A stretch of DNA of 64,000 bases from Cystobasidium ongulense (Eukaryota > Basidiomycota > Cystobasidiomycetes > Cystobasidiales > Cystobasidiaceae): the NCBI GenBank assembly GCA_022835595.1, contig BQUP01000007.1:930001-994000 (forward strand), read 5' to 3'. The notes beneath the pieces were generated by a model. That model was not told where the DNA came from, searched no databases, and worked only from the letters and a program-made list of their open reading frames with translations. A program made the translations under genes and the position numbers. Each line of letters opens with the position of its first letter. Positions within the stretch are counted from its first letter, which is position 1. Of the stretch, positions 28,104 through 45,812 are shown in pieces.

Positions 28104-29517
28104 ATGTCCTCCGTCACTCAAACCATCAGCGAAGCTGTAGGAACGCTCAGATTGAGGCCTTCTGAGCGTCAAGAAGAGGCTTCTCCTGTCGCTGCCTCCA
28201 CCGCTGCTCCTGCCAGCAAGCCCAAGTGGTACTCCGAGACCGCCAACGAAGGTGATGCTCGCGCTCCGTACAAGTACGCAGCTTATCTCCCAACCTTCGA
28301 CGGCCACTTGAAGCTGCCTCCTCTTGAACCATTCGAGCACGCCGACCCTGGCCTCCAAGCTCTGAACGACCCTGACCCCCGCTCCTTCCTGCGCGATGCT
28401 GAGGTCGAAGATATCACGCCTGGATTCGCGACTGAAGTTTTGTCGGGCGTACGACTCGAAGAGCTCGACACTCGAGGTCGACAGCAGCTAGCATTGTTCG
28501 TTGCTCAGCGCGGTATAGTCGTGAGTGACGTCTTGCAGTGCCATCTCTTCCAAGCTGATGTCGGTGATGCGACAACAGGTCTTCCGAAATCAAGAGAGCT
28601 TCATCGACAAAGATCCAGACTGGCTAATCAATAACTGGACCAAGTTCTTTGGACGCCCTCACATCCATCCTACAAGTGGTGCTCCTGAAGGATGGCCCGA
28701 GTTCCATCTCGTTTAGTGAGTTCATAGTCTGCGCTCAATGCTGCATGTATACACTATTCTGACCTGGACCTTCTACTTCAGCCGTGATGCAACCTCTACC
28801 TTCAACTACGACAAGCAGTCGCAGCTCAGCTCGACTACCTGGCACAGCGATGTTACCTACGAGAAGCAGCCTCCTGGATTGACTGCTCTTGCACTCTTTG
28901 ACAGCCCTCCTAGCGGTGGCGATACTGGTTACGCAGATCAGCGGTAAGTCTGGATAAAGGTATTGATACCGCCGACAGAAGCTGATTTTTACACTCTTGC
29001 ATTAGTGCCGCATATCAGAGGCTATCTCCACCTTTCAGAGAGTTCCTTGAGACTCTCCAGGTCATCCACTCTGGTGTTGCTCAAGCAGAATATTCTCGTA
29101 AAGGCAACCGCGGTGGCATCGTCAAGCGAGAACCTGTCGAGAATGCTCACCCACTCGTCCGCGTACACCCTGTCACAGGCGAGAAGGCTCTCTTTGTCAA
29201 CCGTCAGTTCAGTCGACGGATTGTTGGATTCAAGGACGAGGAGTCGGATGCTCTGCTCGAGCTGCTCTACAATCACATTGAGAAGGGAGCAGACTTCCAG
29301 ATCAGAGCACGATGGAGACCCAACACAGTCGTTCTGTGGGACAGTGAGTGTTTTCTAGTAGCTAAGGCGGATGCACATAGCTGACAATCTTTGTCGCGTA
29401 TTAGACCGCATTACCGCTCATACCGCCATTCTAGACTTTGCCAGCACAGGTCTAAGGCGACATGGTGCCCGCTTGACCCCTCAGGCAGAACAGCCTATCA
29501 AGGTGGGATCGTCATAG
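28104..29517 (+). CDS. TauD-type Fe(II)/2-oxoglutarate dioxygenase
   Basis: Non-haem iron oxygenase of the taurine dioxygenase family; relatives release sulfite from sulfonates or cleave aryloxy acids. The iron ligands are HSD in TTWHSDVTYE and the distal His in RITAHTA; the 2-oxoglutarate Arg lies in the RRHGARLT region. The exon order is start MSSVTQTISE, then VFRNQESF, HPTSGAP, the HxD exon, and the last exon. The final intron donor is inside DNRIT. I end the gene at TAG 29515-29517 (QPIKVGSS) because splicing out the next 31 bases would be too short an intron. The N-terminal 60 residues are Ala/Pro-rich. The sulfonate role is inferred from family only. The regulator at 29831 follows directly. 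Confidence 0.9.
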
Positions 29518-29830: not shown

Positions 29831-32284
29831 ATGGACATACCCATCGCGCCAGGCTCATCCACCTTTCCAAGGCTCGGCGAGAGCTCGCCTACTGCCACAA
29901 GCAATGTTGCCAGCAATGCAGCACCTGCGGCCAGCAGCTCGATACGGCCGTTCCGCTCACGCAAGCATCGACCGTGTGACTTGTGCAGGAAGAGAAGGTC
30001 GCGTTGTGCTATCCCTGAACAAGGCTCTGCCTGCATCGAATGCTTGCAGACTGGCAAAGCGTGCACTTTCTTGGATCAACCTGTAGATAGGAAGGAACAG
30101 CTCGCACGGAAGAGACAAAAGAGTGCACAAAAGAGCCCGCCTCCAGCTACAGCTGCACCTCTTTCCGATGTTAATGGGCTTAATGCTTTGCCAACTGGTG
30201 TCACCGAAGCTCAAGCAGCCTTCTCTAAAACGCCTCCGCTCCATGCTGTCGGCGACCATTCGGCAGAGAACATCTCTCTGCAAGTCTCGCTGGAGGCTAC
30301 AGCTACTTTTGATGCACTCGAACCCACTGCCATCACAGCTATGCTCACAGATGACCTCTTACCGGTTAGCGCAGGAGCTACAAACGCAAGCCAAGGCGCT
30401 GTCACGAGCCACTTTCAAATATCCTCGGATCGCAGTAGACCTACCTTTTTCGTCCTGCCTGATATTCCAGAATGTAAGCAGAAGACCACTTTCCATAACG
30501 GCTAGTAGGTTTCTGACTTTCAAATATTGTTGCAGACCGCAGAGCTCGCAGTAGCGAAAGCCACAGTCTGCTGCTGGAGCGTATCTTGTCCGCCTTGGAC
30601 ATTGCAAACATACGAAGTGAAGTCCTCAAAGATGAATACCTTGCAATCGTTCATCCTGCAATGCCTGTTCTATCCCATCAGTTGGGCTCACGGCTTGGCG
30701 AAGTACCGTCCGCTCTGCTAGCCATGATAATCGCAAAATCACTAGAGTCGGCACACGAGCTTCTACACCTTCGAAAGCATATTTGGCATATGATTAAACA
30801 AGATTCTATTGGAGACAATGCTTTACGAACACCTACTCTATCTTCCTTGGCTATCGCTACTTTAGAACTTTCAGCTTGCCCAAGCCTAGATGCAAGAAAT
30901 GATTACATGCTGTTGGCCAAAGTGAATACATTCTATTCGTTGAGTCGCAACGTCCACGCAGTAACTCATTAGCTTTCTCTCCCTTCCACAGGCTATCGCA
31001 CATGCTCAACTTTTGGGATTGCATCTCGCAAGCGGTCGCTGGCGCATTCCAACATGGGAAAGTGAGCAGCGAGAAAGATTGTGGTGGTCATTGCGAATCC
31101 ATGATGCATGGTGAGTCATTACGATGCACGCAATCGACCTGATAGCTTATTATTTCTATCTTTCTGCAGGGTTTCCTTCCTACATTCTAGACCTTCTCAT
31201 CTACAGCCCGGCAATTCCAATGTTCCAATCCCCTCGGTTCCTACTTATATCCCTAGGACTGAAGCAAATCATTTTGCCTCTTTCTCTTACAATTGTCGAC
31301 TTTCTCTACTCATCAATCGCCTACAGAATGGTCTGTGTTTGGTCGAACGATCTGGAGAAGCTAGCAGGAACGCAAAGATTCGACTGTGCGAGCAATTGCA
31401 AGAAGAGCTCATTATACTCGAGGACGAGATTGTCCCTCTGGTGGCTACAAATGGCAGCCTTCCTGGCATGGGTACGTCTCTCACCTTGTCGAATCATTCT
31501 TTACTTTCACTAAGACCAAAATCTACCTTTTGTAGCGAACTTCCAGCTGCTCCTGTACGGATTCCACTGTATGGTCCATCGTGTCAGTATCGAGCTCAGG
31601 ATAGGCCTAGGTACCGCCTTCCTGCCAGATCGTCAAAGTTTGCTCATCTTCAAGAAGTTTGTCGACTTTATCGTTAACATGCCAACACGTCAAGGTTTTT
31701 GGCTACCATGTAAGCACTTTATACAATGCAAAACACGATTTACAACTAATGCCTTCTTCTTGGAACACTTAGACGCATCGCACGTGCTATCGTCTGTGCT
31801 CTCTTCCCTCATTCGCCTTTCGCTTGCGATCGTCATTCACAACGCGGGTGCTCCGAAAAGTGCAACACAGAATTACGGTCCAGTCAGCCCAGTCATGCTG
31901 ATTAGCGAACTCTGTCGAGCTGTACTACCGAGCGAGGAACAATCTTGGGCCGTAGCAAGCGCAGCAGCTCAGCGTGCTCACAACGTAGCCGAACGGCTAC
32001 GCTCTGTTCGAGGTGCTGGAGACTCTGACGAGTATGCCGACCTCCTGCAAGCTCTTCAAGGAAAGCTCATCGTAGAGCAATCGAATCAATCGGATACAGT
32101 AGACTTTGATGCCCTCTTTCAGAGCTTGGCCCCACCAGCCCCATCAGAATCCGTGGGGATGTTTCCCGATCCCAGCTTCTCTTGGTCGAACTTGGACATA
32201 TGGCTTTCCAATCTCGATGGCAATGGACTTCAAACTTTCGAAACTTTTGACAGCGAGGGTGCACTTCAAACAGACTACGTATGA
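29831..32284 (+). CDS. Zn2Cys6 transcription factor with fungal-specific domain
   Basis: Nuclear regulator. The zinc cluster CDLCRKRRSRC, eight residues, CIEC and a final Cys sits at about residues 49-77, followed by a basic linker (RKRQKSAQK). The fungal transcription factor domain follows an Ala/Pro-rich linker; HPAMPVLSHQL, HAQLLGLHLASGRW and RERLWWSLRIHDAW are its usual marks. The C-terminal tail is acidic and rich in Phe, Trp and Asp (SFSWSNLDIWLSNLDG), as in activation domains. Six exons. It lies between the TauD gene and the hydantoin block, so it is a candidate regulator of either (inference). Proteins of this class bind CGG triplets, and CGG-containing heptamers occur in the nearby promoters. 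The stop lies 51 bases from the aldolase stop. Confidence 0.9.
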
Positions 32285-32335: not shown

Positions 32336-33529
32336 TTACTCCAAGAAGATATGGCCTCGTTCCTGAAGTAGTAGACCATACTCTGCCTGGAAGTTGGCCC
32401 ACACATTTTCGGGATATTGAAGGGTATTGGCAGTGAAAGCTGCTTCATCGTTGCCGATGACTCGCTTCGTCAAGCCGTTCGCACAAGCTGCTTCCACTTG
32501 AAGCTGTGCATGGCACATGCGCTCAAGCGCTCCGAAGAGATATGCCGCTTCATCAACAGTGTTTCCCACTGCAAATGCAAGTTATCAGCGAGGAGCCTCT
32601 AGAAAACATTCAAGCATGTATCATAGCTTACATGTCAGGAGACCGTGGTTCTGCAAGATACAAGTCTTGTTCTTTGGTCCAAGAGCTTCAGCGATTTGTT
32701 CCCCTTCTTCTGCAGCTAGGACAATTCCTCCGAAATTCTCGTATACAGCTTGGTTATTATAAAAGAGGCAAGCATCTTGCGTAAGGATATCAATCTTGCG
32801 GCCGAAAACACTCCACGTCTTTCCATATAAAGAATGGCAATGTGCTGCAGCCTGGACTTCTGGTCGTGCCCTATGGATACTGTGTTCGAAAGACAACTTA
32901 GTTAAAAGATCGTTAAGCTCGATGGGCTACAAGATCTTACGCAGAATGGATATTGAAGCCGGCTTGATTGATGGGAAGTTGAGCACCATGCTCTGAGACC
33001 ATACCTTCGTGGTCAACTAGTACGAGATTCGAGACAGTGATGCAAGAGAAGTGAACGCCGAAGGGATTCATCCAGAAGTGATCTGGCAGAACAGGATCAC
33101 GGACAGTGATGTGACCTAGGATACTCGGGTCAGCGATATAGATCTAGTGCCAGTCAACGCAGAAGACCGCCTACCAGAGAGTCCATCACCGAAGCCGCAT
33201 TTGCCGAAGTATTGGAAAGCACCAGCTAGATGTTCCTGTTGGCTATAAGATCAGCACAGTCTCGTTCACAGATTGAATTGCATCTTGGATTAACTAACCT
33301 TGATGTACTGTCTATGCGCATACTTGTCCTCGCCGAAATCTGGGTATCCGTCGTAGCGGACTGTACCTGCCCGATTGCCGCGCCAGGTTCTTTGTAGCGG
33401 ATTCTTGGAGGCATCGAGGGTAGACATGGACTGGGTCTGGTGGAACTGCTGAGTAGGCAAACCCATCGCCGACTTTAGAGATGTAGGAATGCTTGCGCTT
33501 GCGTGGTCGACAAGTCTTCCTGGAGCCAT
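32336..33529 (-). CDS. Class II aldolase/adducin-domain protein
   Basis: Member of the metal-dependent class II aldolase family (fuculose-phosphate aldolase fold). After a non-conserved 75-residue head come GHITVRDP, FWMNPFGVHF, the zinc His pair in AAHCHSLYGK and the third site LQNHGLLTVG. These ligands are intact, so the protein is likely active rather than adducin-like. Five exons; the ATG is at 33529 (MAPGRLVDH). Its 5' end faces the permease at 33969 across a 439-base shared promoter that carries the block's CGGCGAA and GATAAG motifs, which suggests joint control. A role in the hydantoin route is not obvious; it could act on a side-chain product. Confidence 0.87.
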
Positions 33530-33968
33530 GGTAGAGATGTTATAGCTGTATCGGTATGTGCTGATACTCTGGGAGGTCTTGACTGGGCTGATGATATCCA
33601 GGCGATGTGTGTGCAGCCAGCTATCGAGCAGAAGTCTATATCTATCGACAGCGGCCCTCCCCGCTCCACTTGGCCGGCGGCGAATAGCTTTCTGCCTGGC
33701 CGGGTTTCGAGTTCCCGCAATCGGGTGATCGGCTCTCCTTATCTCTGACCGTAAATTCAGAGACAACTGAACAAAAAAGCTTTGGAGGCGGCCAAGCTAG
33801 CACGAGTTGCCCTGATGCTCTCGGCCGCGCCAAAGAACTGTGATATTGGAAGTCAAGCGATAGGCGCGATATCCTCTATCGGACTGTCAGTCCCACAACC
33901 TCTCTCTCTTCTCTCCTTCCTGTCAGAAGCCTTATCTTTCAACTCGCATTGCGAAATCTGCCTTCAAG
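33530..33968. promoter_or_regulatory. Divergent aldolase/permease promoter with CGGCGAA and GATA sites
   Basis: CGGCGAA lies at 33678-33684, and CTTATC (reverse of GATAAG) at 33738-33743 and 33931-33936. The last 80 bases before the permease start are a pyrimidine tract. The same two motifs occur in the other two shared promoters of the block. Confidence 0.55.
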
Positions 33969-36188
33969 ATGACAGTCGTCCGAAGATTTGCGAACAAAGT
34001 GGCCATCGAGCCCGAGCTCGAACCTGTATACGTCGGCAGGGATGGCATCGTCAGAACTGCTACTGCTGGAGACACAGACAGCAAAGATGGAGAGCTTATC
34101 ACGGCGGAGCGCGATATGCTGCCTGTAGCTTGGGACTCCCCTTTACGAACTTGGGGCTTCTTTAGTATGGCCGGGTAGTAAGTCATCGGTCACTACGCAT
34201 TGGGTACTGTACTGATATTGTTGCCCTATAGTTGGCTTGCCGAGGTAATTTTCCCGCCAATCATGCTGGCCGAAACGAAACTTACACCGACTCCTCACTT
34301 ACAATAGGGGTTCGGTATTTCTCAATACCAAGTAGCATCTGCTTCAGTATCTGCCGGTCTCTCTCCTGGTGCTGCTATTGGTGCTGTCCTGGTTGGCCAT
34401 GTCCTCATCAGTGTAAGTCCTGGCTGGTGGCTGTACCGATGCTACGCTGACATCATACTGATGCTTTGATGCAGCTGGCATGCGCAGCTACTGGATACAT
34501 TGGCTGTCGTTATGGTATCAAGTAAGTTAGAGTACCCTTGCGATTCCACCTTTCCTAATTCACCATTTTATTCCAGCATGCCGTCTTTGGCAAGGTCAAG
34601 TTTTGGCATTACTGGTATGTGGATTGCAATCCTCTGCAGGTCAGTTGCAGCAATCTTCTGGTTTGGTACGCAGACCTACGTGAGTATCTCCTCTCTAAAT
34701 TGAACATCTGGGGATAATCTGAGCCTTTTGGCACATACAGCAAGGGGGTCAAGCCGTCCAAGTGATGCTCACGGCCATATGGCCTTCATTCAAGACATTT
34801 ACCAACCATCTACCAGCATCTGCTCATGTTACATCGGCCCAGCTATTGTGCTTCTTTATTTTCTACCTAATCCAATTGCCACTTCTCTACATCCATATCT
34901 CAAAGCTCAGATACCTGTTCATGGTCAAGGTGAGTTTAGGACGAGGAGACAGCATCTGAAAATCACATTAGAATCTGACAGTTGAATATCAAAAGATTAT
35001 CCTTATGCCTATCTTCGGCTTCACATTGTTTGGATGGGCGGTTTCTCAAAGCAACGGATTCGGTCCAATTTTCAACAAGAAAACCAATATCACCACAGGC
35101 ATGCCAGCAGCAGCTGTCTTCTTCTCTGCTTTCACAAGCGCCATCGCTCCCAAAGCAACTCTAGCTTTAAACGTCTGCGATTTCACTAGATACGCCAAGA
35201 ATTCCAAGACCGTCGTTTGGACAAACATTTTCTCTCTTTCGATTCTCCTCACCCTTTGCGCAATCTTAGGTGTTGTCGTCACCTCAGCTACTGAAGTCAT
35301 CTATGGTAAAGCTACCTGGAATCCACTTCAAGTCTCTTCACTAATGGAGAACCGTGCCGCCCAATTCTTCTCTGCTCTCATGTGGGGCTTTGCCGTCTTC
35401 TCCACCAACATATCAGCCAATTCGACTGCTGTCGCAAATGATTTGATGGTGATTGCTCCGAAATATATCAACATCCGCCGTGGACAGTTCATCTGCGCTC
35501 TTCTTGGTCTATGCACCTGCCCTTGGATCATGTAAGCAGAGCGTCTAGGTCTTACATTTATCGAATAGTGGGCTGACTTACATTTCAAACTTAGTCAAAA
35601 CTCTGCCAAGAGCTTTACCGCATTCTTGGGAGGATACTCTGTCTTCTTGGGTCCAGTAGCAGGCGTTATGCTATGCGATTATTTCATCATTAGAAGAATG
35701 CAACTCTCTCTACCAGATATGTTCAAGCGTCAAGACTCAGTTTACTGGAACACATATGGAGTGAATATTAGAGCAATTGCGGCTTTCACTCTAGGCATTG
35801 TTCCCACACTTCCTGGCTTCATCCGTAATGTAAGTCGGATTAGTCTCAGCTTTGCCTCACAAATCGCTGATGGTCTAAAGCACATACTCACAGGTCAACC
35901 CAAACCTTGGCATTCCCATTGGTGCATACTACGCATACGTCGCAACATGGCCAGGTACACCATTTTTTGCTATTCTTGCTCGCTCACATTGCTAATGGTC
36001 TGAAATTCTAATTTGCAGTGGGCGCCGGTACTGCCGCACTTACTTACTACATATTCAACCAAATCTGGCGACCTACTCCACTCAGACAATTCGCGGCACC
36101 AAGCTCTTCTCCCAGTCTCAGCGATGATGGGAAAGATTTAGAAGCCGAGAAGGAACCTGCAGCTACCAAAGTCTATTCGGCAGCTTAG
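33969..36188 (+). CDS. NCS1 permease, FUR type (uracil/allantoin/hydantoin class)
   Basis: Twelve-helix sodium- or proton-coupled importer of nucleobases and related rings. The head leads into WGFFSMAGYWLAEGFG, then GISQYQVASASVSAGLSPG, FWHYWYV, QGGQAVQVML and the long exon 34997-35532 with FGWAVSQSNGFGP and FTSAIAPKATLALNVCDFTRY. The end has GGYSVFLGPVAGVMLCDYF, a signature of the FUR branch (Fur4, Dal4, Fui1). About ten introns; the exon 34232-34244 is only 13 bases. The FUR branch includes allantoin permeases, and allantoin is itself a hydantoin, so import of 5-substituted hydantoins fits the neighbouring enzymes. The substrate is an inference from context. Confidence 0.9.
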
Positions 36189-36516
36189 GAGGCACATCCG
36201 TGTCTTTATGATTTAAGGAATTCGTTGGCAATACGTGTAGAGATCTGTAAAGCTCGAATGTTTATGAAGTGCTCGCGTTCATGTTTCATTAGGAAATGTT
36301 GTGCTTTGCGAGTAATGCGATAAACCAATAGCGTCAGTTTCGGAGCGATAGTCAGCTACTCTTATGCCTTGCACGCAGCCTTGAGGTTTATAAGTTCACC
36401 GCCCCTGCCTTTCAAGTTCAACGTGAGCATAGTCAGCAGCATAGCTCTTCCCAAAAAGTCACAGATTTTGTGTAGGCGGAATATGTTGCCATTGCCGAGG
36501 CCGACACATACTAGAG
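36189..36516. other. Intergenic between convergent genes
   Basis: 328 bases holding the 3' regions of permease and oxidase. Nothing else seen. Confidence 0.4.
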
Positions 36517-37864
36517 CTACAGCTTTGCACTGGTGAAATTAATTCCCATTCGAATCTGCTCTCCTACCATCCTTTGAGCTTCTTCAGCTGAAGCCCAACA
36601 GCTCTGCCATCCATAACCTCCATGTCCATAATTGTGGATCACAGGTATCGAATTCTTCAGAGGTTTGGAGTCGACTTCTAGACGGATACCTTGCTCTCTT
36701 GTAGGTCTAAAACCAACAAGTGCACCCTTGACGATTGTTGAAAGGTCTTGAATTGGCTTTTGATCAGGTGGAGTAGCGAGTTGAGGACAGATTTCTAAAG
36801 CTCTTTTGAGAATATCGGTGGAAGTTTCTGCTCGAGATGCTTCTTCCCTGTTTAATCAAAGGTGAATCATCAGTGACTGCTTCTTTCGGTTACATGGCAA
36901 AAGCCTGTTTGCAAGAGTAGACTTACCAGTCTCCAGCCTCGCGAGTTCCACCGACAATGACTTCGCCACTCGCTCTAGGTATAATGTAAGTCCTTTGCCC
37001 GCCTTCTCCACCACTCAAGCTTCCGACCTGTCTCGTCCATCCCGTCCGTACCCAAGGTGCATCCAATGCTAGAACTTGGCCTCTGACAGGGATGACTGTC
37101 TTGTCTTGCACATCTTGCAAATCTCTTGCGCCCAAGCCAGTGCAATTGACGAGGGCAAGTGGTTTCTTGACGTAGTGAAGAGCTGCTTGTAAGGATGGCA
37201 AGCGTGGTATGCGTTGGATCTTGCCTCCTAGGTCTGTTATGCGTTGAACCAAGTATGGCATATAGCGTGCGGGTTCGACAGTGAAGGATGTGAAAGAGCA
37301 GGAGTGGTCGGCAAAGGCTGGGGCATCGAGCACCTTGAACTATGAGACGGACAAGAGCGTTAGCATAAGTAGTCCGACATGTACGGCACCTGAACCAGTG
37401 CAAGGCGGCCACTCACATCAGGCAGCTGTTCCAAAAATCGAATATGCTTTTCATCGCCAACGTAGTATTCAGTCTGCGTCAGTCGCAATATCCCGCGCTG
37501 GTTCGCAACTTGAGGATCTTCAGACTCTTTCCAGAAGATATCAAAGGTGCGTTGATCCAAGAATCTCTGTCGCCAGTCTTTGTTGTCTGCAAATGACAGA
37601 TGGTGTGCTCCAGCTGCTGTTGAAGAGTAGCGAGCCGTCAAGGGATCTGACGGGAGATGCTCTGCGATGACTAAGACGGGATAGCCAGCTTCGAGCAGCC
37701 TGACGGCTGTTGTGAGGCCCACGCAGCCAGCACCAACGACGACTGCATGGTTAATGGTGGATAGATAGTGATGGCGAAGAGCAGAGAAGCAAGCAAGCAA
37801 GCAAGTTCAGCTGAGAGTGATGGAAGCGACTGCACCAGCACCCACCAATGCGGGACTCGGACAT
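36517..37864 (-). CDS. D-amino-acid oxidase, peroxisomal
   Basis: FAD enzyme that turns D-amino acids into 2-oxo acids, ammonia and hydrogen peroxide. The flavin loop RIVVVGAGCVGLTTAV is made by joining a 19-base first coding exon (37846-37864) to the next exon at 37742. Later family marks: SSTAAGAHH, VNCTGLGARDL, RGQVLALDAPW, GGTREAGDW, GFRPTREQGIRLE and NYGHGGYGW. The last three residues AKL form a type 1 peroxisomal signal. The stop is at 36517. The intron between the first two exons holds a GCAA microsatellite. It is head to head with the hydantoin racemase, 228 bases apart. As the last step of the proposed route it would release usable nitrogen from D-amino acids. Confidence 0.95.
37787..37805. 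repeat. (AAGC)n microsatellite in oxidase intron
   Basis: About 4.75 copies of a 4-base unit lie inside the first intron of the D-amino-acid oxidase gene, close to the branch site. Confidence 0.9.
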
Positions 37865-38092
37865 TGAGCTACAAGCACTGTATGCTGCGATGCTTGCTAT
37901 GCTGGAGACACGCTTCTCGTTGTTGAAGACGATGCTGAATGCCGGTTTAATCGCCACAATTGTCCGCCGGCGAGATAGAGACACTTTCGCCGTCTGCGAA
38001 GAGCCGGCAAGCAGATAAGGAAGTCGGCAAGTAGCAAGGCGTAAGTGGGAGTAGGCTTAGACCAGCATACAGTCTGAATAGGTGCAAGAGTC
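37865..38092. promoter_or_regulatory. Divergent oxidase/racemase promoter with TTCGCCG and GATAAG
   Basis: TTCGCCG (reverse of CGGCGAA) at 37986-37992 and GATAAG at 38014-38019 lie 21 bases apart in the middle of a 228-base shared promoter. Confidence 0.6.
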
Positions 38093-38867
38093 ATGGCTCC
38101 AACAATCCTGGTCATCAATCCCAACTCTTCCAAGTCTATAACAGACGGTCTGCAATCTGCCCTGGAAGCGATATGTCCTTCAACAATACAGCTCGAGTTT
38201 TACACAGCTCCTTCATACGCTCCCAAGGCAATTTCAGACTTTAGAACAATGAACACGACTTCCACGCATTGCTATGAAGATCTGCTGAAACGCAATGCTT
38301 TTGAAAAATACGATGCTTTCCTCGTTTGTTGCTGTGAGTAGTGAACTTGTCATTTCAAAAAGAGAACAAAGTGACAATACACTGAGAGCTTAAATTACAG
38401 TCTCCGACCATCCTTTACAACATATGATTAGAGAAGAACTTGGACCCGCAACTTCAAAGCCATGTGTTGGAATGTTCGAAGCCGCCGTTACGGAGTGTCT
38501 GATGCTCTCCAGACGATTCGGAGTGGTCTGCACAGGCAGTGGGCCTAAACCGCTCTTAATTAAAGGCGTCTCTTCTTTTCTTGGAGGAAGCGCAAGTGAC
38601 CGTTGGGCAGGTTGCCTTACGAGTGGATTGGCAGTTTTAGAACTAAGAGAAGGGGACAAAGCAAGAGTAGAGAGATTAGTCAAAGAAACAGCTGGTAAAG
38701 TAGCCAAAATGGGAGCCGAAGCTATCATAATGGGATGCGCTGGCTTCGCTGGTATGGAGGACTGGATGCAAGAAGGTGTCCGTCAAGCGGGCTGCTCGGA
38801 AGTTAGAATAGTTGATGGTGCTAAGGCGGGCTTGAGAACGCTGTGTGGAATGTTGATGGTACAGTGA
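38093..38867 (+). CDS. Hydantoin racemase (Asp/Glu/hydantoin racemase family, Dcg1-like)
   Basis: Cofactor-free racemase that swaps the chirality of 5-substituted hydantoins (or allantoin) by two opposed cysteines. Both are present: VCCFSDHPL in the first half and MGCAGFAGM in the second. The start ILVINPNSS is the family hallmark. Two exons, 38093-38333 and 38401-38867, give 235 residues, the normal length. Yeast Dcg1 is the named fungal relative and lies in the DAL allantoin cluster. Here the neighbours are an oxidase for D-amino acids, a carbamoylase and a hydantoinase, which fits racemisation of L-hydantoins so that a D-specific pathway can use both forms (inference). Confidence 0.92.
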
Positions 38868-39219
38868 AGGCATCGCCTTCAAGCTTCTGTCGTGTATATA
38901 TATATTCGTGTAGACGTCGGCAGCCTGGCTGAATGAATCCAGATAAGCGACCACCCGAGCTGGGCAGCTAGCCCCTGTCGCCTTCCATCAATCTGCTTGA
39001 GAGTGGCTGCGGGGATGCCAATTTGAGCATTGGAATACCACCTGCCAGGTCCTGATGTAGGTGGTGGGCCCTTCTTCTTCGTTCAACCCTGCATCACTAC
39101 CCTCGGCGACGACTGGCGCGGCCGACATCAGTCTTCCTTCACTTGAAACGGTAATAATACCCTTTTCTATTGAAGCGAAGTAACCCGCGCTTGTGACGGT
39201 CTTCTTGACACGTTTAGCT
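38868..39219. other. Intergenic
   Basis: 352 bases after the racemase. A short TATATATA run occurs near 38900. No gene seen. Confidence 0.4.
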
Positions 39220-40290
39220 CTATTGGCAGCTTATCGCTTCACTCCTTCTCCGCCGCTTCTTCGTCTTCCTTTGAGATGCGGTGGGTTCTGTGAGCGAAGC
39301 AAGAGAGAAAAGATTGTCTGCAGCATTAACTATCACAGAATAGAGAGCATCGGCTGCCTTTCTCTCAATCTTCAGGCCGGCTCTTAATTCCTTCGCTGCG
39401 TCCTCCTTATTCTGTTTTACGCTGCCTTCTATAATCTGCAGCCGTTCTACCTCTTTCGCTTTGGCCTCTTCATCTGTCCTCAAGCGTTCTCCCTCTTCTT
39501 TCTTCTGGCTTTCGAGGCTAGCTCGAACTTCTGGTATCTGACGGTTGTTGCATCACCAATTAGATTCAACTCGCACTTGAACGATGCTTCTGTCCTGCTA
39601 TTCTATGGCGATGACTTTATTCTTCTTGTACGATTTGTAATACCCTCTTGCTAGATCGTTCTGATACATCGCGTAATGAAGAGGCTTTATCTTGAGCTGT
39701 TTGATGGCCACCTTGAAATCTTTCGGGCTTGCTGACCCCTTCATCAACTTATTCTTCAGGTATTGCTCATCCTCCAGTATCCATATTCTGAAAACGACTT
39801 CGGTGGATGAGTGCTTGAAGACGACCGGCAGTACATGAATGTATGTCTAAGTGTGCCGTCTTTCTCCTTGACTTGCTTCTGTGGCATTGGTAGAACTTGG
39901 TGGCTCCTGGAGGGCAATTGATCTTTTCTCCATTAGGTCTTTATTGAGTGACAAGGAGTTTTCGAGTAGAAGGTCGTGTCTACTAATCTTCGAGCTGATG
40001 TCCTGAAGAGCGTCCTGCGTTGTTGGAACGTGTTGAGAGAGCGCCTGTCGCTGCGAGGCTAGCTCTTGAGAGAAGAATTGAGCAATACCATTGACTCTAG
40101 CTTGAGATGTATGCTGCATGACACCAGTAAAACACGAAGAATAGTCTTAATCAGCTCTGATTCCCTACACATTCTTAGGCGAGTATACCAAAGAAAATAC
40201 TTACCTGTTCTCCAGAAGCGATCTTTCTGCCTCCTTGCGATCCGATATTTCCTTGTCCAAATTATTTGAGATGTCTTGATGCTATTGGAT
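39220..40290 (-). pseudogene. Degenerate coiled-coil protein gene
   Basis: Several stretches on the minus strand look like real protein but do not form one frame. In order they include ISDRKEAERSLLEN, then FFSQELASQRQALSQHVP and DLMEKRSIALQEPP, FRIWILEDEQYLKNKLMKG, KCELNLIGDATTVRYQKFE, and a highly charged block (EEAKAKEVERLQIIEG) ending in basic RKTKKRRRR. One good intron, with donor near 40206 and acceptor TAG near 40100, joins the first two. After that about three breaks interrupt the reading. The composition suggests a long charged coiled coil with a basic tail. I do not recognise a family. It may instead be a gene with introns I cannot place. Confidence 0.45.
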
Positions 40291-41018
40291 ATCATGTCTT
40301 TATTCATTTGCTCTGTGAGTGCCACAGGAGATCAGAAGCTATCCGTTCTTTGCCTGGTCGAATAGCGTCGACATCCAGCTGCTGTGTAGTAAAATTCGGA
40401 AGACCAGCTGCCTACCAGAGATGCTGGCATTTAAATTAATAATTAGTTGCAGAGCCAAGATGCATTGCCTCAAAACGCTTCCTTTTATACCCAAAAATTG
40501 GAAGGTTGGAAGGTTGGAAGGTGGGAGGCTTATTCAGCGTCTTGTTAGTTTTGGAAGCATTAACGTGTTCGACAGCTCATACATGGATATCTGGATGGAT
40601 ATTTCCAGGTGGCGCGGATATTTCCAACTTGTGGATGCATATCTTTTCGCGAGAAGAGAAGGGAAGCATCTTGATGACGTCGTTGTAGCTTTTCATTGCT
40701 GTACTGTAATGCCAATAGCTGAGGGTTGCTCCATGAAATCAGGCAGGTGTGCTTGCCTTGAAAACAGGCCTTAGTCTAGACGATCTGTGTATAGAAGCTT
40801 ATGTTAACAGCGGGTCAGCCCGTCAGGAACGATTGAATGCCAGATAGCGCAAAGCTGGCTGCTACTTAAAATGGCGAATGTAAACTGTGATCCTCCACAG
40901 TGGCTATGCATTGCGAAATTTGACTACAATCCAGCTCTTCTTATGTCGCCTCACTCGTTCGCTTGCTGTGTAGGATGATCATAACGCTTGAGACTTCTTA
41001 AGCTGTCGACGGTGGAAC
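40291..41018. other. Intergenic with short tandem repeat
   Basis: Includes four near-copies of TTGGAAGG at 40498-40525 and a pair of GGATATTTCCA units at 40596-40606 and 40617-40627. No gene supported. It may contain a first exon of the degenerate gene. Confidence 0.45.
40498..40525. repeat. Short tandem repeat, unit about 8 bases
   Basis: The unit TTGGAAGG is repeated about three and a half times with a drift to GGTGGG at the end. Confidence 0.75.
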
Positions 41019-41786
41019 TTAGACACTCTTCTCCAGATCATCTATGCTCGCTAAACCATTCTCAGTCAAGAATTTCCAAGCCAGACCTCGATGTTTGATC
41101 TGTGCGCTTTCTGCCATACGTGAAAGGGATAGAGACCATGTGCTCAAGGGCTTCATCTTGTCACCATTTCCAGCCGTGATGACTCCGTCTCCAGTAGTCT
41201 CTTCAGGCAGCTTGATGAAAGCTTTGAGCTCCTTGGCCTTCTCGTCACTGCCAGATAAACCATGACAATGTTAGCCAGCGAGTAGCTAAGGAAAGACAGA
41301 AAAACGAGCTTGATTTACTAATATGGGCAGAGTAGGTCGGTGGCTTTCAGACCTCCTTGCCAGAGACCTGTCTCTTCGTCGAGAGGTATCTCCATCAATA
41401 GCATCTGGCAGAAGAGAAAAGGACAGAACGGGTATCAGTATGAGAGGCCCACAGTAACAGCACGCGTGACGGTAGACGTACGCACCTGGTTTTCCTGCAT
41501 GGCCTTGAACTGTAGCAGCTTTCCATCGGCTTTCACCTTACCATCTAGCCAGTACGGAGCAGTGATCACGTCTTCTTTTTTGAGTGTGAAGTCGGCTAAG
41601 TGATTGAATGAATCAGCAACGAATAGCTAGCATCTGAGCTGGCAGTTGCTCACCTCTCATGTACTGCTCCCATGCTCGCTCTCTCTTGTCAATAGCTGAT
41701 GTTAATTCCTGAATCTTGGGTCTCCAAAACTTCTTCGCCTCCTCCATGCCTTTGAGAAAGTCCTCAGAGAACGCAGAGGGTGCCAT
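41019..41786 (-). CDS. Hypothetical protein, 185 residues, inside hydantoin block
   Basis: I do not recognise this protein. Four exons give a single open frame: MAPSAFSEDFLKGMEEAKKFW with a charged helix (KRERAWEQYMR), ADFTLKKEDVITAPYWLDGK, then MLLMEIPLDEETGLWQGGLK, and a last exon with KLPEETTGDGVITAGNGDK and the tail ASIDDLEKSV. Splice sites are canonical with clear branch sites. No signal peptide or membrane helix. Aromatic and acidic residues are spread as in a small soluble alpha/beta protein. It lies between the racemase and carbamoylase and is transcribed like the carbamoylase, so it may belong to the pathway, but its promoter lacks the CGGCGAA heptamer. Confidence 0.7.
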
Positions 41787-42106
41787 GGCTAGCGAGCTTG
41801 GATAGATGAGGGCACAACAGCACTATCTCCGAGCTGCAGAATGGTACAAGAGCAAGATGAGGATTGCTCGTCCATGTCGGACACGTTTGCTGGCTTGCTT
41901 GACAACAAATGAAGTGTCGGGTCTGAGCTTCGAGCTGGCACTGCAGTAGGGAAGAAACTTAGGAGAAGCACGTCAGCTCACTTCCAGCTCTTGACAAAGC
42001 CTTCCTGAACATCTCTGCGCTGGCTGCGACCTGACTTGGTCATCGCACTGTCACTCCACCGCAAGAGCTGCATTGCTGAAATCTGCACACAATCCAGCTA
42101 GTTCTA
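41787..42106. other. Intergenic, upstream of hypothetical gene
   Basis: 320 bases between the hypothetical gene start and the carbamoylase stop. No gene; no CGGCGAA seen. Confidence 0.4.
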
Positions 42107-43354
42107 CTACGCCTGAACAGGCTCCGGAGGCTCTACAACGCCCGCTTGCTGGGTGAGAATACCATAGTGCTCGATACGTCTATGCTTCTCAAAGCAGAAT
42201 GTCTTCTGCTTGCCTTGCTGGCAGGCGTCAATGTCGATATCCGCCCAGATGATCTCGTCCTCCTCCGTCTTGTTCTCAGCGACGATGTGCCCTTCAGGAT
42301 TGACTATCATTGACCCAGAGATGAGGGGATGGATGCCATCGTCTACACCACATCGAGCAGAAGTGATAAGGAAAGCTGGTGGAAGGGCAGCAGCGATAAA
42401 GTCTTTTGGATCAGCTTATATCTCCTCGATCACGTGAATGCAACAAGACCCACTCGAATTGGTGTATGCATGAGCTTGACAGACCAGCTTGTGGTGGAAC
42501 ATGGCATCTGCAGCTGCTGCTTCTCGCGTCATGGACTTGGGATCGATGCCCCATAGCTGTGGAGCCCATGCAGTCGTGTTCTGAGCGAGATTGCAGGCTC
42601 GTCAGTGCGCGCTTTCCTATCTACTAGATCTGATGGAGACCTACATAGCCAATACACATGATCTCGACGCCTTGCAGACCGTACGCACGCCATCCTTCTG
42701 CCCATCTTCTATCATTGCAGATGAGCATGCCGATAATAGGGCTCTTCTCCGACTTTGTAGCCTTCTGCAAGCCCGGCGCTCGGAAAGCATTAAAGCCAAG
42801 ATTGCCAGGCAGGAAGTATCGTTTCTCGAGCTGATTGGTGACTTTAGTATCCTTCGCATCGAATGGTTCGAACGTTCCAGGTAGGTGGATCTTTCTATAC
42901 TTTCCAATAACCTTCTTCGTCGCGCCTGAGACGTAAGAAGCAGTGTTATATCGCTTTCCGTCGGGCGTTTGCTCGCCATAACCGATAGCGATATCTATCC
43001 CTAGCTCAGCCGCTCTATCGAACAAGCTTTTCACGCTTTCAACAGCAGTAATGCCATCGTCATTATCTGGCTCTTGCTCGAAATACGACGCGAGCTCTTC
43101 CGACTTTAGATCTTCGAAATAGTAGCGAGGAAAGAAAGTGCCTGCGAGATTCGAGGATTAGTTTCGAATACTTCGCAAATTACTCCAGGCATATTTGCCT
43201 TACTGAAGGTAGTTTCAGGGAACACTACCAACTTGACTTCCCTTGATGCAGCTTCTTCAAGCAGTTTCGTCAATCTCGCCACTACTTCTTGCTTTGGCGT
43301 TCCTCTATCAATTCGGCCGACTTGGGCAGCGGCGACTCGGAGCATTCGGGGCAT
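42107..43354 (-). CDS. N-carbamoyl-D-amino-acid hydrolase (nitrilase superfamily)
   Basis: Cysteine amidohydrolase that removes the carbamoyl group from N-carbamoyl-D-amino acids, giving the D-amino acid, CO2 and ammonia. The catalytic triad is intact: Glu in VVFPETTF, Lys in GKYRKIHLPG and Cys in LICNDRRWAEGW. The CNDRRW wording is typical of D-carbamoylases rather than of beta-ureidopropionase. The end has ARCGVDDG, SMIVNPEGHIVAE and a His/Arg-rich KHRRIEHYG. Start at ATG 43354 (MPRMLRVAAAQ). Four or five exons; the first intron must be spliced from GTAAGG near 43195 so that TFSTFFPRYYFED reads through. It shares a 265-base promoter with the hydantoinase, its upstream partner in the route. 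Confidence 0.93.
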
Positions 43355-43619
43355 GGTAAGTTGCTGATATTGCTTTCGTTCAAGAGGGTTTTTCAAGACC
43401 AGCACCATCTCATTCCTGCTTCGCTTGTTTCCACTGTGGCGGCACACGCCTGCGGCGAAATCGATTCGACTTCGCCGGTCTTTGCTTGATCGGCCGGATT
43501 ATCGGCGAGAGATAAGCTTCAAGAAAGCCGAAGTGTTGACTTCTCTGTGCGTATCGACTTTGCTGTTACTACTTGTTCTCCACTAACTCGAGCTCTACTG
43601 TCCTATCCCTGCCACTACC
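43355..43619. promoter_or_regulatory. Divergent carbamoylase/hydantoinase promoter with palindromic CGG site
   Basis: CGGCGAA at 43453-43459 and its reverse complement TTCGCCG at 43471-43477 form an inverted repeat with an 11-base spacer, the geometry of a Zn2Cys6 dimer site. GATAAG lies at 43511-43516, and an ATTATC just before it. Confidence 0.6.
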
Positions 43620-45812
43620 ATGTTCAGCTTCGACCTCGTCATCAAGAATGGCATAGTTGCGACCGCTTCTGACGAATTCAAAAGTGATATCGGCATCAAG
43701 GATGGCAAGATTCTAGTCCTTGCTCCTCAGCTGGAAGTCCTTGAGGGATGTGAAGTCATAGACGCAGAAGGTGGATATGTGACGGTCAGTTCATTATTCG
43801 TGCAGTGACATTTCAACACATTCACTTTGTTCTAACTTGCTTTGCCACGCGTTTACTTTTTAGCCCGGTGGAATAGACTCGCATGTTCATATTGCTCAAT
43901 CCGCTGCGAAGTCTCTTGGTGCAAAATCTGCGGATGATTGGACTTCAGCTACTCGTTCAGCTGTTGCTGGTGGCACTACGAGCGTGCTTGCTTTTGCCGT
44001 GCAAAACAGGGGATGCAGCATGAAGGCAGCTGTGGATGATTATCATGGTGAGCATGCTATTCACTGCATAGTATAGTCAAAATAAACTAAACGTAATTCT
44101 CTTCCTAGGTCTAGCTACTGGAAATGCTATTTGTGATTATGGCTTCCATGTCATTGTCACCGACCCAAGCGAGGAGCAAATGAACAAGGAATTAGTACAG
44201 CTAATGGACGAAGGTATTACAAGCATTAAGATCTACTCAACTTACCCCGCTTTGAAACTCAATGACACGCAAATTTTGGATACCTTCTATGCCGCAAGAC
44301 GACATGGCGTTACTGTTAGTAAGTTGCAAGAAAACTTCTAGGTTCGAGACAAATGTGATTGAAATTGCAGCTGAACTTGTCAATTTCACAGTGGTACATG
44401 CCGAGAACAGCGATATGATAGAATGGTTTACCAAAGATCTCGAAGCTAGAGGAATGACCGAACCTTGGCATCATGGCACATCTCGACCTCCCATCGTAGA
44501 AGCAGAAGCTACAAATCGCATACTAGCTCTAAGCGAAATCATGGATTGCCCTATACTCTTCGTCCATGTCTCAGCACCCGAAGCAATCCGAGTCATCCGA
44601 GAAGCACAAGCTAAACTCCTAAGCATATATGCCGAAACATGTCCTCATTACATGTTGCTGACTGGCGAAGCCATGCGTGCACCTGGATTCGAGGGTATGT
44701 GCAACTTTCTTTGGTATTGAAGCTTAAGCACCACGGGCAAGGCAATCTGTAAGTAATTGCATTATGATCTCTAATGAGCGCCTGTGTAAAGACCCCTTTA
44801 CACAGGCGCCCAATGGCATTAGAGATCATAATGTAATTACTTACAGATTGCCTTGCCGCGGTGCTTTTGACTGGACAATCCTTTCTGATTTTTTGATGCT
44901 TAAACAGGCGCAAAAGCTTGCTGCGCACCACCACTCCGCGACAACCCAGAAGATAGAGAACGGGTATTCGAAGGATTGATGAATGGTGCTTTGACGATTT
45001 TCTCGAGTGATCATGCTCCTACGAATTACTACGACAAAGATGGCAAACAGGTATGATTAGAAAGATGCTAGGACGTAGAGTAATGCGAGCTAACCGTTTC
45101 CTGTCCCATCTATAGCTTGGACTTACTAAGAACCCAGGAAAGAATCCTCGTGGTAACTTCCGCTATATTCCAAACGGATTACCTGGTGTCGAAACGAAGG
45201 GCCCTCTTCTATGGAGTGAAGGTGTCTGCAAAGGAAGAATGTCAGTCAGTAAATTCGTAGAATTGAACTCGACAAATGCGGCCAAGTTGTACGGAATGTA
45301 CCCACAGAGTAAGTCATTCATTGTGAACACCGTATGAGAAAGAAGCTAAGCGGCAGCTCCTTTTTGTAATAGAGGGAACAATAGCTCCAGGCAGTGATGC
45401 AGATCTTATCATCTGGGCGCCTGCTCATAAGAGGCAGCCTTTCATCCTGAAGGTTGAAAAGGTAAGCCGAAGCTTGCTTCTTATGTATTTGAGTGCACTA
45501 GCTTACAAGCGATGGCCTTTCACAGCTTCATTGTATGTTTCGTATGATCTGAAAAGTCTAGTGATAGAGGGTCTTGCTAAAAAGTTTTGCTTCCTCCTCA
45601 CAGCCAAGTGCGACTATACGCCATACGAAGGATTTGAACTTCTCGACTGGCCTTTGAAGACCATACTACGAGGAAAAGTAGTGTACGATGGAAGGACGAA
45701 TGAAGTTATTGCCCCTCCCGGAACAGGTCAGTGGCTGAAGAGAGGGAAGAGCATATTGCAAGGACCCCGTAATAGATGGTTGAGCGAATGGAGACCTGCA
45801 TATGAGAAGTGA
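43620..45812 (+). CDS. D-hydantoinase (dihydropyrimidinase family)
   Basis: Zinc amidohydrolase that opens 5-substituted hydantoins to N-carbamoyl amino acids; relatives open dihydropyrimidines. Metal ligands in order: GGIDSHVHI, the carbamylated Lys in SIKIYS, VVHAENSD, FVHVSAPEA and SSDHAPTNYY. ETCPHYMLLT, IPNGLPGVE and GTIAPGSDADLIIW are further family marks. The start is the ATG at 43620 (MFSFDLVIKNG). About nine exons. The intron at 44695-44907 is 213 bases, three times the local norm, because of a 141-base hairpin element. Removing it would leave 72 bases. Neighbours (racemase, D-carbamoylase, D-oxidase) favour a hydantoin over a uracil role. Confidence 0.94.
44726..44866. mobile_element. 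MITE-like hairpin element in hydantoinase intron
   Basis: A near-perfect inverted repeat. The outer arms begin AAGCACC and end GGTGCTT; the shared arm runs through GGCAATCTGTAAGTAATT and ATTATGATCTCTAAT; the inner stem GCGCCTGTGTAAAG (44778-44791) pairs with 44796-44809 around a 4-base loop. One small bulge (2 against 8 bases) and single differences interrupt the pairing. No coding capacity. A TTGA flanks both sides loosely (44717-44720 and 44867-44870), but the target duplication is not certain. This is a plain non-autonomous DNA element or fold-back. Confidence 0.75.

Follow-up and report, generated by a model that had tools for sequence, protein, structure and literature searches.

Gene content of the locus

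We analysed a window of 64,000 nucleotides from Cystobasidium ongulense (C7:930001-994000 of a 19.77-Mb assembly in 19 contigs), in which a group of intron-bearing genes probably constitutes a fungal catabolic set for 5-substituted (D-)hydantoins. The set comprises genes for an NCS1 permease, an Asp/Glu/hydantoin racemase, a hydantoinase-family enzyme, a nitrilase-fold D-carbamoylase and a D-aspartate-oxidase-like flavoprotein (Table 1). Gene models for these five and for a class II aldolase-fold gene, which a preliminary description of the locus had not listed, were rebuilt by hand splicing. All six run in frame from ATG to stop with GT..AG introns throughout, and Pfam places all six proteins in the families expected. 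The five genes named in the preliminary description are therefore intact and multi-exon, and the anatomy of the cluster is solid. The five are not strictly contiguous, because the aldolase-fold gene, a gene for a 185-residue protein and an unmodelled stretch at 39.2-40.4 kb share the span. Window positions 39220-40331, about 1.1 kb, hold open frames on the minus strand with no clear gene.

Table 1. Genes and divergent promoter regions of the cluster and its left flank (window positions)
Feature	Position	Strand	Description
Class II aldolase-fold gene	32336-33529	-	5 exons, 315 aa; Aldolase_II 153 bits (Pfam)
NCS1 permease	33969-36188	+	10 exons, 563 aa; Transp_cyt_pur 314 bits, cut-off 23.5 (Pfam)
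D-aspartate-oxidase-like flavoprotein	36517-37864	-	4 exons, 362 aa; DAO 122 bits (Pfam); C-terminal -AKL
Asp/Glu/hydantoin racemase	38093-38867	+	2 exons, 235 aa; Asp_Glu_race 151 bits (Pfam)
D-carbamoylase	42107-43354	-	4 exons, 347 aa; CN_hydrolase 137 bits (Pfam)
D-hydantoinase/dihydropyrimidinase-family enzyme	43620-45812	+	9 exons, 500 aa; Amidohydro_1 84 bits (Pfam)
Gene between racemase and carbamoylase	41019-41786	-	4 exons, 185 aa; no Pfam match
Zn(2)Cys(6) transcription factor gene	29831-32284	+	Zn_clus 21.2 bits, cut-off 21 (first two exons modelled, right end from open frame); candidate regulator
TauD-family 2-oxoglutarate dioxygenase gene	28104-29517	+	5 exons, 387 aa; TauD 173 bits (Pfam); possible extended member
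Divergent promoter region, aldolase-fold gene/permease	33530-33968		AGATAAG at 33738, 33931, minus strand
Divergent promoter region, oxidase/racemase	37865-38092		AGATAAG at 38013
Divergent promoter region, carbamoylase/hydantoinase	43355-43619		AGATAAG at 43510

Linkage, fusion and origin

The evidence for repeated linkage of the carbamoylase, hydantoinase and oxidase genes is strong. We searched with these three proteins and tallied the best 120 relatives of each by hand; the best named relatives of all three come from Rhodotorula, Rhodosporidiobolus, Sporobolomyces and similar yeasts, which we take to be Microbotryomycetes. Among the relatives listed, 27 other fungi or contigs show linkage of two or more of these genes. 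In 15 fungi the linkage follows from locus tags that share a prefix and lie no more than five apart: Rhodosporidiobolus poonsookiae, with all three genes (hydantoinase, oxidase and carbamoylase tags 2950, 2954 and 2955), R. ruineniae, R. nylandii, R. odoratus, Rhodotorula kratochvilovae, R. araucariae, R. babjevae, R. pacifica, Sporobolomyces salmoneus, S. koalae, S. pararoseus, Kwoniella dejecticola, K. pini, Kwoniella sp. CBS 9459 and Coniferiporia weirii. Contigs of equal size, which point to a shared contig rather than to adjacency, add 12 fungi or contigs. All three genes are found in this way in Phellopilus nigrolimitatus, Tremellales sp. Uapishka_1 and Dendrothele bispora, and a carbamoylase-racemase fusion with a hydantoinase in two genomes, Gloeophyllum trabeum and Saccharata proteae. 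The others are K. shivajii, Stereum hirsutum, Naematelia encephala, Pseudohyphozyma bogoriensis, one further 32-kb contig, R. toruloides (its carbamoylase listed on a contig of slightly different size) and Cryptococcus sp. DSM 104549, a weak case on a 4-Mb contig. The tally draws on species represented in more than one of the three lists, the Armillaria group aside.

The fusion itself is frequent. Of the carbamoylase relatives listed, 36 out of 120 exceed 560 residues, among them proteins of Aspergillus, Colletotrichum, Zasmidium and Gloeophyllum; in every one of the 36, a racemase domain follows the carbamoylase. The window carbamoylase is 51-56% identical to the first part of these proteins and the window racemase 27-34% to the second. 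The preliminary description had proposed co-location in other fungi as a check on its interpretation; pursued indirectly here, with three of the genes, this did not refute it. That the genes are chance neighbours serving unrelated pathways is highly improbable. The family-less gene and the unmodelled stretch between racemase and carbamoylase would suit such an explanation, as would the fungi that carry the genes on different contigs, but the linkage recurs in genomes that, by general knowledge of their taxonomy, presumably span Pucciniomycotina, Agaricomycotina and one member of Pezizomycotina, and other fungi have the carbamoylase physically fused to a racemase.

Hydantoin use via D-amino acids is a bacterial trait and an industrial tool. 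A bacterial and archaeal scan with the carbamoylase alignment gave 567 relatives, and we examined the loci of the best 80 (43-49% identical) with flanks of no more than 8 kb on either side (65 of the 80 loci exceed 15 kb), using the window proteins in tblastn at E <= 1e-5. Bacterial hyu clusters share with the fungal set the combination of hydantoinase, D-carbamoylase and racemase: a racemase match lies in the flanks at 46 of the 80 loci and a hydantoinase-family match at 38, although 13 of the latter are only 23-29% identical and possibly other amidohydrolases. None of the 80 loci gave a match to the window oxidase, permease or aldolase-fold gene at this threshold. The fungal set further differs from bacterial hyu clusters in its introns, its divergent promoters, its D-aspartate-oxidase-like last step and, in other fungi, the fusion of carbamoylase and racemase.

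The hydantoinase and carbamoylase trees agree with the introns in supporting the earlier view of a settled fungal locus rather than recent bacterial DNA. In a FastTree analysis of 123 hydantoinase rows (118 relatives left from the list of 120 once two short ones had been dropped, plus five others), the window protein falls in a 28-row clade with support of 1.0, which contains neither the solved dihydropyrimidinase 2fty nor the second copy of this genome, on contig C3; the junction of this clade with other fungal rows has a support of 0.12. A quick carbamoylase tree of 39 fungal-side rows (the window protein and 38 chosen from the 120 listed relatives) and 20 bacterial rows chosen from the 80 loci splits the two sides across one branch (value 99) and places the window carbamoylase in a set of eight with Rhodotorula-like yeasts (value 99). 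Recent bacterial acquisition was thus rejected for these two genes. For the racemase family, the accessible part of PMC5169069 treats transfers of Asp/Glu/hydantoin racemases into fungi, and the word carbamoyl does not occur in that part.

The authors of the preliminary description knew of no described fungal cluster of this kind. Our searches of open-access full texts on this and related subjects, a coverage from which subscription journals are mostly absent, likewise listed none, and the accessible parts of PMC12735256 and PMC4489021 contained nothing of the sort.

Family assignments and competing pathways

The preliminary description credited the core enzymes with complete catalytic motifs, and the rebuilt models bear this out. 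The hydantoinase has H62, H64, K157, H189, H245 and D322, which we take to be the metal-ligand residues of its family. It passes TIGR02033, the NCBIfam equivalog for D-hydantoinase/dihydropyrimidinase (479 bits, cut-off 393), and stays below the cut-off of the allantoinase model (232 bits, cut-off 358). Judged by solved relatives and NCBIfam scores, sequence alone does not tell D-hydantoinase from dihydropyrimidinase; its gene context favours hydantoin over dihydropyrimidine as the likely substrate. Given the hydantoinase protein itself as its template, a spliced aligner reproduced all nine exons, including a 7-nt exon (45526-45532) that is required for the frame and for the HSKCDYTPYEG stretch. 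Intron 4 of this gene measures 213 nt, against 61-79 nt for the other introns, and contains a long inverted repeat (window 44726-44888) with arms of about 70 bp and an 84% self-match on the opposite strand; no further copy of the repeat was found in the genome.

The nitrilase-fold gene is assigned to the N-carbamoyl-D-amino-acid hydrolases by full-length similarity and by its triad, and hydrolysis of N-carbamoyl-D-amino acids is its predicted activity. It scores 207-223 bits against 11 solved D-carbamoylase sequences, over residues 1-338 or nearly so. Among other nitrilase-fold chains the best score is 47 bits; 3ivz, which is also named beta-ureidopropionase, reaches 42, and CG3027-PA (2vhh), presumably an animal beta-ureidopropionase, 22. 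An alignment of 16 sequences, chosen from 121, shows no variation at E47, K134 and C192; these residues lie in FPE, KYRK.HLPG and ICNDRRW motifs, which we take to mark the Glu-Lys-Cys catalytic triad of D-carbamoylases. A beta-ureidopropionase identity was rejected on these bit scores. The genome holds no second carbamoylase copy at E <= 0.001.

These scores bear on the first of the two routes that the preliminary description had offered as alternatives, reductive pyrimidine (uracil) catabolism, in which the permease would import uracil, the hydantoinase would be a dihydropyrimidinase and the nitrilase-fold enzyme a beta-ureidopropionase. In favour of it, the hydantoinase passes a model named dihydropyrimidinase, and its best solved relative is 2FTY, which we take to be the Lachancea kluyveri dihydropyrimidinase and with which it shares a C-terminal extension. 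However, the L. kluyveri enzyme belongs to another clade, and the window hydantoinase is accompanied by a D-carbamoylase in a genome without a detected dihydropyrimidine dehydrogenase. Two exon-by-exon domain searches of the genome, which are only as good as the assembly, found neither this dehydrogenase nor a dihydroorotate dehydrogenase-like dihydrouracil oxidase of the kind described in the accessible part of PMC9585004; the sole DHO_dh match reads as class II dihydroorotate dehydrogenase and the sole Fer4_20 match as glutamate synthase. Uracil carriers do occur among the NCS1 permeases in the accessible part of PMC10788122, but the racemase and the D-amino-acid oxidase would have no place in a uracil route, the nitrilase-fold protein is far from beta-ureidopropionases, and the second hydantoinase-family gene could serve pyrimidines. 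We rejected the uracil route because the two domain searches detected no such dehydrogenase, and regard it as unlikely. The class II dihydroorotate dehydrogenase (C2:2099058-2100089) is encoded within a frame that extends over 863 codons or more, the later part of which consists of tandem ESAAAFRE.GRDIKHDPLL-like repeats.

The racemase carries C79 and C80 in CCFSDH and C193 in GCAGFAG, presumably including both catalytic cysteines, and is predicted to act on 5-substituted hydantoins. A second racemase gene of the genome, a possible Dcg1, lies on contig C5. The permease, whose NCS1 symporter domain is borne out by the Pfam score, has the hydantoin permease Mhp1 as its best solved relative (76 bits) and is a predicted hydantoin importer; it falls just under the cut-off of the NCBIfam ncs1 model (338 bits, cut-off 353), and weaker NCS1 matches occur elsewhere in the genome.

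Both proteins also bear on the second alternative, an allantoin cluster like the yeast DAL cluster, with an allantoin permease, an allantoin racemase and an allantoinase. In yeast DAL an Asp/Glu/hydantoin-family racemase, Dcg1, presumably lies near a permease as it does here; to our knowledge, that cluster lacks both a D-carbamoylase and a D-oxidase. Among solved proteins the racemase comes closest to an allantoin racemase, the permease scores against allantoin permease models of NCBIfam at values under the cut-offs, and some of the listed hydantoinase relatives are named putative allantoinase. Against this, the genome carries a gene reading as allantoinase on C5 (C5:1801338) and allantoicase matches over cut-off on C6, in contrast to the yeast arrangement, and the hydantoinase scores better against the D-hydantoinase than the allantoinase model. 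We also know of no role for a D-carbamoylase or the oxidase in allantoin use. The allantoin route was rejected on the model scores and on the placement of allantoinase and allantoicase on other contigs, and we consider it a shade less probable even than the uracil route.

The preliminary description had named the last enzyme a D-amino-acid oxidase. A DAO-family oxidase is indeed present, and its type can be refined: it scores 328 bits against a solved D-aspartate oxidase, as opposed to 137 and 114 bits against the two best D-amino-acid oxidases. Its R218, R248 and R300 align with R216, R237 and R278 of chain 6rkf, which we take to be human D-aspartate oxidase. In the accessible part of PMC8260693, Arg216, Arg237 and Arg278 (human numbering) are described as surrounding the acidic substrate of D-aspartate oxidase. 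Both side-chain-pocket arginines are present in all 22 of the best oxidase relatives (P0241-P0262), and 18 of these 22 end in [SA][KR]L. The D-aspartate oxidase of Vanrija (Cryptococcus) humicola (OXDD_VANHU, P0297) is 50% identical and resembles the window enzyme in an active-site stretch containing TRQVGSL and RTYIIPR, but has Met at the second-arginine position, where the window and human enzymes have Arg. According to the accessible part of PMC8708985, D-Asp utilisation by Vanrija requires this enzyme, and enzymes of this class are peroxisomal.

A predicted pathway for hydantoin catabolism

Taken together, these features lead us to read the cluster as a fungal catabolic set for 5-substituted (D-)hydantoins, with a probability of roughly 0.7. 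In the proposed scheme, the NCS1 permease would import the hydantoin, the cofactor-independent racemase would interconvert its enantiomers and the metal-dependent hydantoinase would open the D-form to an N-carbamoyl-D-amino acid. The Cys-Lys-Glu D-carbamoylase would then yield carbon dioxide, ammonia and the free D-amino acid, which the D-aspartate-oxidase-like flavoenzyme, probably peroxisomal, would convert to an oxo acid with release of a second ammonia and hydrogen peroxide. With acidic substrates such as 5-(carboxymethyl)hydantoin or hydantoin-5-propionate, the products would be D-aspartate or D-glutamate and, from these, oxaloacetate or 2-oxoglutarate. Gene integrity, families, catalytic residues, three-gene linkage, the fusion and the D-aspartate-oxidase signature are computed results; from them we infer all the reactions and their sequence, the D-stereochemistry with which the ring is opened, hydantoin uptake, the acidic side chain and the location of the oxidase in the peroxisome. 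No reading that we found, other than the hydantoin one, employs all five enzymes. The hydantoin-to-oxo-acid interpretation of the preliminary description is supported by the linkage and the fusion, and the alternatives that it had named, the uracil and allantoin routes, are weak. As key genes of the set occur side by side in many further fungi, the route appears to be an old one for nutrient use, of a type known in bacteria.

Several results nevertheless weigh against this reading. The TIGR02033 model, passed by both hydantoinase-family copies of the genome, bears the name dihydropyrimidinase, and the best solved relative of the window hydantoinase is a dihydropyrimidinase (2fty, 459 bits), followed by the D-hydantoinase 1nfg (358 bits). 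No NCBIfam model is over its cut-off for the racemase, the oxidase or the carbamoylase, for which the best is N-carbamoylputrescine amidase (83 bits, cut-off 410). Among solved relatives of the racemase, an allantoin racemase comes first with a weak 50 bits and a putative hydantoin racemase reaches 38. The fused racemase domains are nearer to the second racemase on C5 (31-39%) than to the window racemase (27-34%), so the fusion joins families rather than strict orthologues. The ligand range of the Aspergillus NCS1 permeases in PMC10788122 fits an acidic hydantoin poorly. Linkage is also incomplete: carbamoylase and oxidase of Meredithblackwellia eburnea lie on contigs of differing size, as do the fusion and the hydantoinase of Aspergillus sclerotiicarbonarius, and contig size also sets apart the hydantoinase of Pseudohyphozyma and the oxidase listed for Kwoniella shivajii. 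Finally, outside the 22 best oxidase relatives, nine oxidases are on the same contig as a gene of the cluster (P0264, P0266, P0272, P0277, P0278, P0280, P0283, P0284 and P0291). The first arginine is kept in seven of these and is Tyr in two (Phellopilus and Coniferiporia), the second is kept in eight and absent in one, and none of the nine ends in a peroxisomal-type tripeptide.

Since the oxidase bears the D-aspartate oxidase arginines, acidic hydantoins are the likeliest natural substrates, although we hold this at somewhat short of even odds. Acid specificity of the oxidase is likely in this lineage; because some of the nine linked oxidases elsewhere lack one of the arginines, it is less certain there, and the peroxisomal reading, which comes from the -AKL end and is probable for the C. 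ongulense enzyme, is confined to this lineage. In Fistulina and Flagelloscypha the listed oxidase lies on another contig and lacks the first arginine. ErtD, the hydantoin-5-propionate amidohydrolase of bacterial ergothioneine use, belongs to the same amidohydrolase family as the hydantoinase, and the name of its model tells us that an acidic hydantoin has been assigned as a substrate within that family. The window hydantoinase reaches 177 and 231 bits against the ErtD models, far under their curated cut-offs of 600 and 650 bits, and is not filed as ErtD. Basic residues in the substrate loops of the hydantoinase were considered as a possible sign of acidic substrates; lysines and arginines occur there in bacterial relatives as well.

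A variant that overlaps with our preferred explanation is a hydantoin cluster handling broad neutral side chains, as in bacteria, which we regard as a tentative possibility. Bacterial hydantoin enzymes are broad in substrate, which would suit such a cluster, and so would the Tyr that replaces the key Arg in two linked oxidases and the Lys or Leu found at this position in other Agaricomycete relatives. The NCS1 ligands in the accessible part of PMC10788122, where Aspergillus permeases carry uracil, cytosine, allantoin and similar compounds, are mostly neutral too. On the other side stand the two pocket arginines, retained in 22 of 22 best relatives, and the far higher score of the oxidase against D-aspartate oxidase than against D-amino-acid oxidases. 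Marginally more doubtful is a specific form of the hydantoin reading, a dedicated acidic-hydantoin pathway that would lead via N-carbamoyl-D-Asp or N-carbamoyl-D-Glu to the free acidic amino acid in its D-form, would extend across Basidiomycota, in its fused form also into Ascomycota, and would end in the peroxisome in the present lineage. Under this form, the hydantoins may be leftovers of orotate, histidine or ergothioneine chemistry, and the TauD dioxygenase may be an activating first step. We lowered our confidence in it slightly because none of the nine linked oxidases outside the lineage has a peroxisomal-type end.

Regulation and the extended cluster

The six modelled genes form three divergent pairs, aldolase-fold gene/permease, oxidase/racemase and carbamoylase/hydantoinase, with 439, 228 and 265 bp between the start codons. 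The 932 bp of these promoters contain ten sites for HGATAR, the standard GATA motif. Among 20,000 random sets of equally long segments from the whole window, coding sequence included, 0.2% have at least as many, as does 1 in 5,000 shuffles. AGATAAG occurs in each of the three regions, as it does in 0.02% of the random sets, the word having been chosen after the sites were seen. The motifs suggest that a GATA factor may place the cluster under nitrogen control. A 10-base word common to the three promoters was rejected; the best mismatch sums were no better than those of shuffles.

To the left of the aldolase-fold gene lie the Zn(2)Cys(6) gene and the TauD dioxygenase gene; in the model of the latter, one of four introns ends in ..CAGGTC rather than AG. 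This left side is mirrored around the second hydantoinase-family gene of the genome (C3:1269500-1276000), which has a TauD gene, a frame resembling Zn(2)Cys(6) factors and an additional weak TauD match around it. The C3 TauD gene is 40% identical to the window TauD and is the latter's best other match in the genome. The TauD query matched five genomic places, three of which lie next to a hydantoinase-family gene, either that of the window or that on C3; such a query may overlook TauD genes of greater divergence. Among solved structures the aldolase-fold protein comes closest to TqaM (221 bits), followed by an unnamed class II aldolase/adducin protein (208 bits), a chain named fuculose-1-phosphate aldolase (199 bits) and the decarboxylase NovR (181 bits).

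Significance

A conserved, intron-bearing fungal version of the hydantoin pathway with a D-aspartate-oxidase-like step would constitute a new eukaryotic nitrogen pathway and would place fungal D-aspartate oxidases in a metabolic context. If the acidic-hydantoin reading is true, it would provide these oxidases with a natural source of D-Asp and D-Glu. D-amino-acid production would gain eukaryotic D-carbamoylases and naturally fused carbamoylase-racemase enzymes, and the natural substrate of hydantoinases would become accessible to yeast genetics, for example in Rhodotorula toruloides.

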